Positions 25,666 through 31,116 of a stretch of 64,000 bases of DNA are shown piece by piece. Position 1 is the stretch's first letter; each line of letters begins with the position of its first letter. The stretch spans positions 186,001-250,000 of the forward strand of contig CATQHT010000002.1 in NCBI GenBank assembly GCA_958296045.1. The letters run 5' to 3'. A program made the translations under genes and the position numbers. The DNA comes from Rhodothermales bacterium (GTDB lineage Bacteria; Bacteroidota; Rhodothermia; Rhodothermales; Bin80). The notes beneath the pieces were generated by a model, which saw nothing but the letters and a program-made list of their open reading frames with translations, was not told the origin of the DNA and did not search any database.

Positions 25666-26694
25666 ATGGACGTTCCACTGTGGCTTTTGGCCATCATCGC
25701 ATTCGGGGTGATCAACTTCATGCTGATTTCCGCGTCGGTGCTGGTATATGCGGAGCGCAAAGTTTCGGCGTATATGCAGAACAGGCCGGGACCCAACCGT
25801 GTGGGGCCGGCCGGATTTCTACAGCCTTTCGCGGATGTATTCAAGCTGATGTTCAAAGAGGACGTAGCGCCGCGTGCCGCGTCGCCTTTTGTGCATTCTT
25901 TAGCGCCGGTCATCATGGTGGTGATTGCGATGACGGTGCCAGCCATGATTCCATTTGCCCGCGGTGTCGTTATCGTGGACAACAGCGTGACGGTGCTTAT
26001 CATCCTGGCGCTGACGTCGGTGTCGGTCTACGGCGTCACGATGGCTGGCTGGAGCAGCAACAGCAAGTTTTCGCTTCTGGGCGGACTGCGCTCTTCGGCG
26101 CAGATGATTTCGTATGAGCTGTCGATGGGTCTTGCGGTGGCGTCCGTAGTGCTATTGGCGGGATCGCTCAGCGTGGTGGAGATTGTCGAAGATCAGTCGG
26201 TAGGTGGCGCGGTCTTGGGGTGGAATGTTTTTCGCAACCCACTTGGCGCACTCATCTTTGTGATCACCGCATTTGCCGAAACGAACCGGGCGCCGTTTGA
26301 CCTTCCAGAGGCGGAGCAGGAGCTGGTGGGTGGCTACCACACGGAGTACAGTGGCATGAAGTTCGGCATGTTTTTCTTGGCCGAATACGTGAACTGGTTC
26401 GTAGCCTCCTTTGTTATTGTCACATTGTTTTTCGGCGGCTATCTGCTTCCGTTCGAACCGCAGATCCTGGCGGCGTATCCTGGGCTGGAGGGGTCTGTCG
26501 GGCTGGGGCTACTCCAGGCATTGTGCCTTCTGGTGAAGGTCGGATTCTTCGTATTCCTGTTTCTGTGGGTCCGCTGGACACTTCCGCGCTTCAAGTACAA
26601 TCAGCTGATGGAGATCGGATGGAAAGTCATGCTGCCTGCTGCACTGGTCAACGTGTTGCTTATTGCGATCGCGGTGGCCGTGTTTATGGGATAG
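25666..26694 (+). CDS. nuoH: NADH-quinone oxidoreductase subunit H
   Basis: A 342-residue membrane subunit with about eight helices that closes the quinone chamber. Conserved signatures are present: YAERKVSAYMQNRPGPNRVGP near residue 30 and FAETNRAPFDLPEAEQELVGGYHTEYSG near 215, the acidic loop that lines the quinone cavity. nuoI-N are not in this window after nuoH, so the membrane-arm genes must lie elsewhere. The cluster ends here; rpe follows 4 bases later. Confidence 0.97.
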   Translation: MDVPLWLLAIIAFGVINFMLISASVLVYAERKVSAYMQNRPGPNRVGPAGFLQPFADVFKLMFKEDVAPRAASPFVHSLAPVIMVVIAMTVPAMIPFARGVVIVDNSVTVLIILALTSVSVYGVTMAGWSSNSKFSLLGGLRSSAQMISYELSMGLAVASVVLLAGSLSVVEIVEDQSVGGAVLGWNVFRNPLGALIFVITAFAETNRAPFDLPEAEQELVGGYHTEYSGMKFGMFFLAEYVNWFVASFVIVTLFFGGYLLPFEPQILAAYPGLEGSVGLGLLQALCLLVKVGFFVFLFLWVRWTLPRFKYNQLMEIGWKVMLPAALVNVLLIAIAVAVFMG

Positions 26695-26698
26695 GCTG

Positions 26699-27394
26699 AT
26701 GCCTCCGATTCTGTCTCCGTCGATCCTTTCTGCTGACTTCGCGCATTTGGAAAGAGACGCGGGTGAGGCAGTTAAGGCTGGCGCCCATTGGTTGCATGTG
26801 GATGTGATGGACGGCCACTTTGTGCCCAACATAACGATGGGGCCGGTCATTGTACGCGCGTTGCAGCCGCTGCGCCGGCGGACCGGGGTCTGGTTGGATG
26901 TGCATCTGATGATTGCGTATCCCGACCGGTATCTGTCTGCCTTTGTCGAGGCTGGCAGTGACGTCATCACGGTGCATGTGGAGGCGTGCCCTGATCCGGT
27001 AGCCACGGTGAAAGCGATTCGGGCGCTGGGGGTTCGTCCGGGGATCACGTTGAATCCCGACACGCCGTTGGCGGCGCTGGACGGCGTGCTTGAGCATGTT
27101 GACGTAGCGATGGTGATGTCGGTGCATCCTGGCTTTGCGGGCCAGGTGTACCTTCCGGGTTCCAACGACCGTATTGCTGCTTTGCGCTGTCGGCTTGATG
27201 CAATGGGGTCGGACGCGTTGTTGCAGGTGGATGGTGGGGTTAAGCCGCACAACGCGTTAGCGGCGGCCACTGCTGGCGCATCGGTGTTGGTGGCGGGCAG
27301 TGCGATCTTTAAGGGAGATATAGCGTCGAATGCTGCGCGTTTCTGCGAGGTTCTTGCCCCTGTAGCTCAACAGGATAGAGCGACGGCCTCCTAA
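26699..27394 (+). CDS. rpe: ribulose-phosphate 3-epimerase
   Basis: A 231-residue TIM-barrel enzyme interconverting ribulose 5-phosphate and xylulose 5-phosphate in the pentose phosphate pathway. ILSADFAHL, HVDVMDGHFVPNIT (metal-binding His and catalytic Asp), VHPGFAGQ and the phosphate-binding VDGGVKPHNA/VAGSAIF motifs are intact. The start is the ATG that begins the conserved MPPILSPSILSADF. The frame runs 39 bases into the tRNA-Arg gene, whose anticodon-arm TAA supplies the stop; the last ten residues are encoded by tRNA sequence. Confidence 0.95.
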   Translation: MPPILSPSILSADFAHLERDAGEAVKAGAHWLHVDVMDGHFVPNITMGPVIVRALQPLRRRTGVWLDVHLMIAYPDRYLSAFVEAGSDVITVHVEACPDPVATVKAIRALGVRPGITLNPDTPLAALDGVLEHVDVAMVMSVHPGFAGQVYLPGSNDRIAALRCRLDAMGSDALLQVDGGVKPHNALAAATAGASVLVAGSAIFKGDIASNAARFCEVLAPVAQQDRATAS

Positions 27395-27428
27395 GCCGTA
27401 AGTCCGGGTTCGAGTCCTGGCGGGGGTA
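27356..27428 (+). tRNA. tRNA-Arg (anticodon CCT)
   Basis: A 73-base cloverleaf. The acceptor strands start GCCCCTG and end CGGGGGT with discriminator A. The D arm is AGCTC…GAGC. The anticodon stem is ACGGC/GCCGT with loop CTCCTAA (anticodon CCT, reading AGG), and the T arm is CCGGG-TTCGAGT-CCTGG. CCA is not encoded. It overlaps the 3' end of rpe. Confidence 0.95.
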
Positions 27429-27433
27429 CAGCC

Positions 27434-27997
27434 ATGCGGGGTGCACTCGGATTCATTGCATTGGGATCCAACGAGGGCGACCGCGTTTGCCATCTGCGCG
27501 CGGCGCTTGTGGGTCTAGAGGCGGCGCGCCAGGTGGTGGTTCTTGAGGCCTCTCCCATCTATGAGTCGGCCGCGCATACGCTCGGACGCGGCGATGTGCA
27601 GCCGGACTATCTGAATGCGGTGGTCATGGTCCGCACCATGCTTCGTGCGTTTGACCTACTTGGTCTGTGCCGCTGTTTGGAAAGGGCTGCGGGTAGGGTG
27701 CGCAGGCTTCGCTGGGCTCCCCGGACGTTGGACTTGGATCTCTTGGATCTCGGCGGTCAGTGCCTGAGTGGTCCTGAGCTTACGTTGCCGCATCCGCGCC
27801 TTGCTGTGCGCCGATTTGTGTTGCAGCCTTGGACAGATGTGTTGCCGACGCACAGGCTGGGGCCGCCCCATCGGGCGACCGTGTCGCAGCTGTTAGCGCG
27901 TTGCTCCGACGACGGAGCGCTACGCAAGACTAAGCTGGCCTGGCGACCGGTCGCTACAGAGAGGGCTGTCGCTCTGGACCTTCCCAGCCAGGATTGA
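27434..27997 (+). CDS. folK: 2-amino-4-hydroxy-6-hydroxymethyldihydropteridine pyrophosphokinase
   Basis: A 187-residue HPPK, which transfers pyrophosphate from ATP to the pterin substrate in folate synthesis. The family motifs are FIALGSNEGDR at the N-terminus, YLNAVV, the signature RWAPRTLDLDLLDL (metal and ATP ligands) and LPHPRLAVRRFVLQPW. The tail after residue 150 is longer than in minimal HPPKs. The ATG lies 5 bases after the tRNA-Arg gene, so the mRNA is probably released by tRNA processing. Confidence 0.92.
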   Translation: MRGALGFIALGSNEGDRVCHLRAALVGLEAARQVVVLEASPIYESAAHTLGRGDVQPDYLNAVVMVRTMLRAFDLLGLCRCLERAAGRVRRLRWAPRTLDLDLLDLGGQCLSGPELTLPHPRLAVRRFVLQPWTDVLPTHRLGPPHRATVSQLLARCSDDGALRKTKLAWRPVATERAVALDLPSQD

Positions 27998-28339
27998 TGG
28001 GTAGGACCGGCCGCCCGAGCGGGATTCGCTGCTGCCCTACCTCCCGCACCGTCCCGCGTGTGCTCCGAGCCTACCTTAGCTGCCCTGATAGATCAGGTCA
28101 GGCGTCCGACTTGGTCGCAGCCTCAGCTGTACGAGGCAGACTATGCTACGCCTGTATTTGGGGGCAGCTCCTGTCTCAAAGTCGGAGTCATTTGCATGCA
28201 GGAGAGGTGCCCATTCTTAAGCGGGTCGCCCTTTACCGTCTTAGCTGACCCCCAGATGTTAACATCGATCCAAGGGGAGTCAGCGTCTCCTACGGACGCA
28301 TTCGAGTAGACGGGATGTGCGCAGCTACGAAGGATCTCG
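27998..28339. other. non-coding stretch between folK and nuclease gene
   Basis: Convergent intergenic region. A short open frame across it has no recognisable motifs or ribosome site. It marks the border between the housekeeping block and the accessory island. Confidence 0.5.
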
Positions 28340-29478: not shown

Positions 29479-31116
29479 TCAGCGATTGGCAGCAGGGGCG
29501 TCTAACACTTTCCAATAGCCGCCTTTGTCGGGACCGACCCGTTGGATCTTCCCAGCTGCGCGCGCCTTGTCCAGGTGGTAACGGATGGTGGACTCGGTGG
29601 TGGCGAGCGTGGCGGCGATTTCGCGGCGCCCAGCGGTGGGTTTCCGGCGAAGGACCGCTAGGATTCGGTCTCCGATCGGGGCGGATGCTGGCGGTGTTCC
29701 AGCGGATCCGTCGGGTTTCTGGCCGTGTTCTGGTTGCTTGATTTCAGTTTCTGGTTGTTTTCTGGTTGTTTTCTGGTGGATCGGGCCGCTTTCTGGTTGT
29801 TTTCTGGTGGATATCTGCGTAGTGTTCCCGGCTAATTGGTTAGCCTGTCGGGCAGAGCTATTCTGTTCCCGGGAAGTGTCTTGAATGGAACCGTGCTTTG
29901 TTTTGGCGTTGCCTGGCCGCCAAATCCTCGTCAGAAAGCCCGCGCCGACCTCGAACTCGGGTTCCGCAAGGCACACCTCCGTGCACCGCCGGATCATGTC
30001 CACCGTCCCAGTTCCCATCTTCTCGATGTAGCGCAGCAGGTACATGGACTCGGCGAGCAATGGATTGCCGGGCAGAGATTGGTGCGCCACGCGCAGCTTC
30101 TCCACAGTGAGCGGTGGCGGCAAGCGACCGGAATTCATGACTTCCAGCCGATCAGCGAAAAGCATAACTTGCACGCTGCTGCAGTCGGTGTAGTCCCGAT
30201 GCGCTACCGCGTTGACAATGGCTTCGGTAACCACCTCTTTCGGTATCTCGTAGGTCACGGGCGCCTGGACGGTCTTCGCCCTTGTGCCCACAGCAAGCGC
30301 GATCTTGCTCATAACGAAGTCCACGGCTTGGTCCACAAGCTCGAAGACCGTGCCCTTGTAAACCTGATAGGAGGGAATCGGCTTAGCGACCTCGGTACCG
30401 TGGAAGTGCGCGCACTTGACCTCGGAAGAGATCAGGAACCGTTGCGGGGCTCTGCCGAACAGCAACACTGCGGCGTTAGTGAGCCGTCCCCTGTTCAACA
30501 GGTTCAGATGCCTGAGCAGGTCCGCCCGGGACGTGTCCGCCGGTATCGGGAACTGCCGTGCTCTGCGCGCGGTGCGGATGAATCGGTACATGCCCTCGGC
30601 ATCCAGGTCGTCAAGAGTGGCCCCCGAGCAATGTGCGGCATCGAAAGGCCCAAAGCGCAATAGCTCTTTCGTATCGAGATACTGAACGAGTGCGGCGTAG
30701 AGACCGGCTACCAACTCGACAGGTGTGACGAAGCGTCTTCTTACCAAACCGACTTGTGCCCTGTCAATGAGCATGCGCATCTTCGAGTGCCTGTCTTCTT
30801 CAGCACTCCTCACGAAGACGAGCCGGTGCTTTTCCAACTCAGTGGCGCGGTCGAACTCCCGCTCGGTGGGCGAAACACCTGTCGCGTCCTCGAACCCGTA
30901 ATCTTTCCCGAAGAGGCCCACATAGATGTCGGACCGTTCCACTTCGTCCAGATAAACCGTGTCGGGCTGCCGGTCGGAAGCCGGCACATCCTCGAAGAGG
31001 AAAACTTCGAAGTAGCGCCGCATGAGTGGGTCGCTCCGCAAGTAGTTGCGTAGATGCTCCCGCTCCTGTGCGAACTCGCGCTGGACGCTACTGATGAAGA
31101 TACGAATTGGGCTCAT
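29479..31116 (-). CDS. DUF4062 + Schlafen/RecG-like ATP-binding protein of a type I R-M locus
   Basis: A 545-residue protein. Residues 1-150 are DUF4062 (RIFISSVQREFAQERE…GLFGKDYG). Residues 165-400 are the GHKL-type ATP-binding region found in AlbA_2/RecG-like regulators (EAIVNAVAHRDY near 298-309, LEVMNSG, GTGTVDM). Residues 400-480 are a low-complexity Gln/Pro/Thr linker. Residues 480-540 are a winged helix (GRREIAATLATTESTIRYHLDKARAAGKI). Such proteins often sit between hsdS and hsdR. The ATG overlaps the hsdS stop (ATGA), and the hsdR stump follows. It probably had an accessory or regulatory role. The frame is intact although both neighbours are destroyed. Confidence 0.8.
   Translation of the reverse strand: MSPIRIFISSVQREFAQEREHLRNYLRSDPLMRRYFEVFLFEDVPASDRQPDTVYLDEVERSDIYVGLFGKDYGFEDATGVSPTEREFDRATELEKHRLVFVRSAEEDRHSKMRMLIDRAQVGLVRRRFVTPVELVAGLYAALVQYLDTKELLRFGPFDAAHCSGATLDDLDAEGMYRFIRTARRARQFPIPADTSRADLLRHLNLLNRGRLTNAAVLLFGRAPQRFLISSEVKCAHFHGTEVAKPIPSYQVYKGTVFELVDQAVDFVMSKIALAVGTRAKTVQAPVTYEIPKEVVTEAIVNAVAHRDYTDCSSVQVMLFADRLEVMNSGRLPPPLTVEKLRVAHQSLPGNPLLAESMYLLRYIEKMGTGTVDMIRRCTEVCLAEPEFEVGAGFLTRIWRPGNAKTKHGSIQDTSREQNSSARQANQLAGNTTQISTRKQPESGPIHQKTTRKQPETEIKQPEHGQKPDGSAGTPPASAPIGDRILAVLRRKPTAGRREIAATLATTESTIRYHLDKARAAGKIQRVGPDKGGYWKVLDAPAANR
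29751..29812. repeat. 11-bp repeats in the linker of the DUF4062 gene
   Basis: The unit CTGGTTGTTTT occurs twice in tandem (from 29751) and again at 29793; a longer 20-base segment recurs 31 bases apart. They encode the KQPE-type linker. Because 11 is not a multiple of three, gain or loss of a unit would shift the frame before the winged helix. Confidence 0.7.

Follow-up and report, generated by a model that had tools for sequence, protein, structure and literature searches.

In 14 of the 16 genomes of a Rhodothermales family (f1), the gene for ribulose-phosphate 3-epimerase (rpe) runs into the tRNA-Arg(CCU) gene downstream of it and uses a stop codon inside that tRNA. We consider it probable that rpe once closed a nuo operon with a stop codon of its own, that a tRNA-Arg(CCU)-folK pair came to lie directly after it, and that this stop was subsequently lost, leaving the tRNA to end rpe translation. 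The analysis starts from a 64-kb stretch of DNA (the window), whose own genome is G000 in genome-by-genome comparisons; several of the family genomes are presumably derived from sponges.

The gene order on the + strand of the window is nuoG-nuoH-rpe-tRNA-Arg(CCU)-folK (Table 1). ARAGORN places the tRNA at 27356-27429 and Rfam RF00005 at 27356-27428 (64.9 bits), and the rpe stop takes up tRNA bases 37-39 by simple count, which are U36-A37-A38 in canonical numbering. The earlier note on this DNA had the rpe frame entering the tRNA by 39 bases and closing at a TAA, which ARAGORN, Rfam and a reading of the frame bear out, but its figure of ten final codons from the tRNA is too low: the tail derived from the tRNA is 12 residues (APVAQQDRATAS), followed by the stop. 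The tryptic peptide that crosses the rpe/tRNA junction is FCEVLAPVAQQDR. In the window folK has a single in-frame start and no alternative. We note that the acceptor stem of the tRNA starts with a G1-U72 pair (27356, 27427) rather than G-C, as it does in all 15 family genomes with a readable tRNA 3' end. Elsewhere in the window, an ORF of 545 codons on the minus strand (29479-31116) encodes a protein that resembles the DUF4062 type and may carry a winged helix at its C-terminus.

Table 1. Features of the rpe-tRNA-folK locus in the window, and tRNA genes at other loci of G000 and G002 discussed in the text.
Feature	Position	Strand	Basis and remarks
nuoH	25666..26694	+	NCBIfam NuoH models; stop ends 4 nt 5' of rpe ATG
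rpe, ribulose-phosphate 3-epimerase, 231 aa	26699..27394	+	TIGR01163, PF00834; TAA inside tRNA
tRNA-Arg(CCU), CCA not encoded	27356..27428	+	ARAGORN, Rfam RF00005
rpe/tRNA overlap, 12 rpe codons and TAA = tRNA bases 1-39	27356..27394	+	
TAG, tRNA bases 8-10	27363..27365	+	Out of frame here; rpe stop in G007, G009, G011, G015
TAG, tRNA bases 21-23	27376..27378	+	Out of frame here; rpe stop in G001
rpe stop TAA	27392-27394	+	Within tRNA; reading frame
GGGGG, acceptor 3' strand of tRNA	27422..27426	+	Shine-Dalgarno-like stretch closest to folK; use doubtful
folK (HPPK)	27434..27997	+	TIGR01498, PF01288; ATG 5 nt past tRNA discriminator base
tRNA-Ser(UGA), G002	L278, 1501-1588 of reverse complement	minus	
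Intron-bearing tRNA-Arg(UCU), G000:C3	L281 1456-1741	minus	ARAGORN, RF00028
Intron-bearing tRNA-Arg(UCU), G002	L282 1476-1766		ARAGORN, RF00028

The rpe gene is genuine and full. It scores 249.6 bits against TIGR01163 (cut-off 212.6), is an open frame and is present in a single copy, the sole match in the window's genome. PF00834 spans residues 5-204, and the best relative in the PDB aligns over residues 4-218. The tRNA starts at rpe codon 220, so that the recognised Rpe body is encoded upstream of it; as judged from these alignments, the core of Rpe is complete before the tRNA begins.

The overlap is widespread in the family, which comprises 16 genomes including the window's own. The rpe stop lies at tRNA bases 37-39 in nine of these (G000, G002, G003, G005, G008, G010, G012, G013 and G014), at bases 8-10 in four (G007, G009, G011 and G015) and at bases 21-23 in one (G001). 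In G006 rpe enters the tRNA in the bases 37-39 frame and is still open where the contig ends, and in G004 it stops 11 nt 5' of the tRNA. The earlier note had asked whether the overlap is conserved in relatives, and had reasoned that stops ahead of the tRNA in those relatives would mark a local loss of a stop codon. G004 is the one genome among the 16 with such a stop, and with the rpe stop inside the tRNA in 14 of them the overlap is not a local accident. In the overlapping genomes rpe is 58-72% identical to the window's copy. The start of folK is 4-10 nt 3' of the tRNA in 14 of the 16 genomes, of which G001 and G011 each offer a further candidate start no more than 12 nt away; in G004 the first in-frame start is a GTG 23 nt from the tRNA, and G006 is unreadable at the contig end.

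The use of three reading frames is explained by one-base shifts in the spacing between rpe and the tRNA. Of the 15 overlapping genomes, 14 have the conserved Rpe motif AGSA[VI]F at a distance of 44-46 nt from the start of the tRNA (45 nt in nine, 44 in four and 46 in one); the distance is 51 nt in G003 and 83 nt in the non-overlapping G004. The tRNA is able to receive each of these frames, as its two TAGs (bases 8-10 and 21-23) and its TAA (bases 37-39) between them close all three. This is not a common property: among the distinct tRNAs around the fetched loci of two genomes, all three frames are closed in only four of 32 in G000 (two tRNA-Met, tRNA-Val(GAC) and tRNA-Arg(CCU)) and in only four of 33 in G002, tRNA-Arg(CCU) included. 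Loss of the rpe stop may have been tolerated because the Rpe body ends 5' of the tRNA and the tRNA closes each frame.

A NuoG tree suggests an order for these events. It is a quick tree without bootstrap, rooted on 14 genomes from other families, in which f1 is monophyletic (SH-aLRT 100) and G004 branches as sister of the 15 remaining members (SH-aLRT 88). The four rpe end states require three changes on this tree, with G006 scored in the bases 37-39 frame. The simplest history would be one in which the genes were adjacent, a single loss of the rpe stop followed, and two later frame changes were caught by the other stops of the tRNA. Since the placement of G004 has a support of 88 without bootstrap, its separate rpe stop may also reflect a secondary loss of the overlap.

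Outside the family, the parts of this locus are found separately. In all 14 non-family rpe loci examined, a minority of the rpe loci of the order, the gene has its own stop 17-21 codons past AGSA[VI]F, and none of the 14 has a tRNA beside rpe within the 0.8-1.5 kb visible downstream. Among the 18 non-f1 genomes with a strong nuoG match, a same-strand spacing of 1.1-1.3 kb between nuoG and rpe is seen in six (G016, G019, G022, G029, G030 and G033) and one of 3.4-3.7 kb in three more (G024, G025 and G036), as taken from the match positions. tRNA-Arg(CCU) is no more than 0.9 kb upstream of folK in five of 28 non-f1 folK loci, and in G061 just a few bases away. The separation is about 0.2 kb or less in three f2 genomes (G016, G049 and G061) and one f14 genome (G102), of which G016, G049 and G102 come from a set of 20 regions, some picked for their tRNA, so that these folK neighbours are a sample. 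With nuo-rpe and tRNA-Arg-folK pairings both present outside f1, the f1 arrangement would appear to be a fusion of two blocks that existed before it, probably made on the family's stem.

A plausible scenario for the expression of the joined locus follows from what is known of tRNA maturation. Placed directly beside the tRNA-Arg(CCU)-folK pair at the end of the nuo operon, rpe would have lost its own stop and would now be terminated by the one in the tRNA, and any one transcript spanning the locus would then mature into the tRNA or serve as a complete rpe-folK message, but would not do both. The RNase P of bacteria cleaves its substrates at base 1 of the tRNA. Such a cut would leave a stopless rpe mRNA ending ...GAG GTT CTT, and cleavage at the 3' end of the tRNA would leave the folK mRNA about 5 nt of leader, while the uncut transcript would encode Rpe with its tRNA-encoded tail, plus folK. 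Ribosomes on the cut rpe mRNA would presumably be rescued by tmRNA, whose gene is present in the window's genome (163.7 bits).

Transcripts translated rather than cut would be lost to the supply of tRNA-Arg(CCU). AGG accounts for 7.9 per thousand codons in 40 ORFs of the window. tRNA-Arg(UCU) could also read AGG by wobble, and as a possible AGG reader the intron-bearing form present here could make some loss of tRNA-Arg(CCU) bearable. In both G000 and G002 the tRNA-Arg(UCU) gene lies between tRNA-Pro and tRNA-Cys and is split by a group I intron (211-214 nt by ARAGORN; 57.8 and 56.0 bits against RF00028, cut-off 50). No uninterrupted pattern for tRNA-Arg(UCU) or tRNA-Lys(UUU) is found in either genome, and none of the 39 tRNAs identified in G000 is a tRNA-Lys; its absence from the uninterrupted set suggests that tRNA-Lys may be split too. 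We also note further group I intron matches at L279 (64.2 bits) and L280 (62.3 bits), and two below the cut-off at L283 (33.3 bits) and L284 (29.8 bits), all in split tRNAs whose identity is doubtful in ARAGORN (Leu, Asn).

Close contact between a protein gene and a tRNA also occurs elsewhere, in the relative G002. Of the 39 tRNA genes identified in G000, 30 were examined with flanks and nine with short flanks only, and among the 30 rpe is the only recognised gene seen to end in a tRNA; of 19 further long frames reaching a tRNA, five were run against Pfam and have no match, and the rest were judged by eye. In G002, where 30 of 39 tRNAs were likewise examined with flanks, there are 21 long frames besides rpe, and of five run against Pfam three have no match and two do. 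One is a VTT-domain (DedA-like) gene that stops at a TGA formed by bases 3-5 of tRNA-Thr(UGU) (L255, tRNA 1501-1574). The other is an FGGY carbohydrate kinase, whose ATG takes its A from the end of the CCA encoded in the tRNA-Ser(UGA) gene and its TG from the two bases that follow. Genes other than rpe are thus also packed closely against tRNAs.

Other interpretations of the locus share its anatomy and history with the scenario above, and the likelihoods we attach to them are not exclusive. One, which we regard as unlikely, is that there are two independent transcripts, with a tRNA promoter lying within rpe and the long mRNA shielded by translating ribosomes, such that there is little conflict between them. 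A search for the Bacteroidota-like promoter TAnnTTTG, with up to one mismatch, finds a site no more than 130 nt upstream of the tRNA in eight of the 16 genomes, seven of them at -51/-52 and the one in G008 exact. Synonymous-site conservation at residues 183-218, just ahead of the tRNA, also lies among the higher values along the gene, with an excess identity of 0.07-0.09. However, codon shuffling gives 5.8 of 16 genomes with a TAnnTTTG-like site, the -51/-52 site coincides with the conserved A[VI]F codons, and the window's genome has no such site. There is no sigma-70-like site in 26600-28100, and this, together with TAnnTTTG-like sites near chance, disfavours an internal tRNA promoter. A terminator-like site is also absent from 26600-28100.

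Slightly less probable still is that the locus is an evolved switch, in which folding of the tRNA and its cleavage by RNase P set the output of Rpe and FolK and so link the pentose phosphate pathway and folate metabolism to the capacity for translation. The overlap has survived two frame changes in 15 of the 16 genomes and folK has been kept 4-10 nt from the tRNA in 14, and the same logic has been proposed for selB/selC (PMC8124441). In a model with a ribosome on the rpe stop, the predicted cost of opening the acceptor GGGGG falls in ten of 14 genomes (all but G004 and G006 being modelled, with an assumed footprint and unmodified RNA). Most of the falls are small, however, and the cost rises in the other four, the window's genome included (G000, G005, G012 and G014); the cloverleaf is the lowest-energy fold of the modelled tRNA alone in only three of the 14 (G000, G001 and G013). 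Shine-Dalgarno sequences are not enriched in the 40 window ORFs (seven, against 8.8 in controls, with starts taken as the first ATG), and we therefore make no claim that folK uses the tRNA as one. With the near copies G009, G011 and G014 left out, there is no synonymous-site peak ahead of the tRNA, comparable excesses being present elsewhere in rpe (0.087 at residues 63-74 and 0.098 at residues 99-110), and neutral retention predicts the identical pattern. The particular form in which an elongator tRNA punctuates two genes, by supplying the stop of rpe and the context in which folK starts, with a choice between cutting and translating that sets tRNA-Arg(CCU) against Rpe and FolK, we rate as a little more doubtful again.

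The earlier note had proposed that the overlap could couple tRNA maturation to rpe expression, and the overlap structure itself holds. Regulation is not firmly supported, given the lack of a synonymous peak, promoter-like sites that barely exceed expectation, RNA-structure results that vary from genome to genome, and the two further overlaps in G002, which suggest a tolerance of tight packing. Signs of selection at the overlap are weak and mixed; its long retention could mean selection, but looks more like tolerated compaction than an evolved switch. A benefit of the tRNA-encoded tail to Rpe is very improbable, as the tail, identical in the nine genomes fully read in the bases 37-39 frame, is dictated by the tRNA, and five other overlapping genomes carry a different and shorter one. 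Least credible of all is an artefact, whether a false join in the assembly or an rpe that is no longer functional: although the tail is plain translated tRNA, the family contigs stem from many assemblies, G002 is one single contig, and rpe is single copy, open and above the TIGR01163 cut-off.

The arrangement has several partial parallels. In the secG-leuU and tufB operons of E. coli, tRNA genes lie inside mRNA operons, and the tRNA is similarly cut from a longer transcript with protein genes; the stops of those protein genes are not known to lie inside the tRNA, as that of rpe does. In animal mitochondria tRNAs act as punctuation: coding regions are parted where the tRNAs are excised, and the message on the 5' side can lose its stop in the process, as would be the case here. 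Mitochondria can complete stops by polyadenylation, whereas A residues added at the rpe cut would give no stop in any of the three frames when the codons are read.

The closest case found in an open PMC literature search is that of selB and selC (PMC8124441); in one query, none of the 15 papers listed out of 1,102 matches has tRNA overlap in its title. Mukai (2021) reports selC nested in selB or partially overlapping it, and in Dyella and Luteibacter the selB stop is inside tRNA-Sec at residues 46-48. It is proposed there that tRNA processing leaves the mRNA on the 5' side without a stop and the one on the 3' side without a leader; the lowered protein output that this would cause is a hypothesis in that paper too. 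The selB/selC overlap is described as conserved yet not essential, with some relatives having gained stops before the tRNA. The two cases are alike in that a protein gene runs into a same-strand downstream tRNA and stops inside an intact-looking tRNA, and in that the overlap is kept among related species. They differ in that selB and selC are partners in one pathway whereas rpe and tRNA-Arg(CCU) are, by annotation, unrelated, and in that the rpe locus uses three frames across relatives and has folK 4-10 nt past the tRNA. What is new relative to selB/selC is the exchange of three frames, and a family record in which the earliest-branching member has its own stop. PMC8124441 also cites Armadillidium cox1 as a mitochondrial overlap of a tRNA and a coding sequence, and passages of PMC10865867 deal with phage attachment sites in tRNAs.

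An elongator tRNA can therefore terminate a metabolic gene in most members of a bacterial family, despite changes of frame. Tails such as PVAQQDRATAS, easily written off as mistranslated tRNA, can be the genuine C-terminus of a protein. If transcripts of this locus must choose between tRNA and message, such loci would be a natural setting in which to study how ribosomes and RNase P compete, and how tmRNA rescue is used as a matter of routine.
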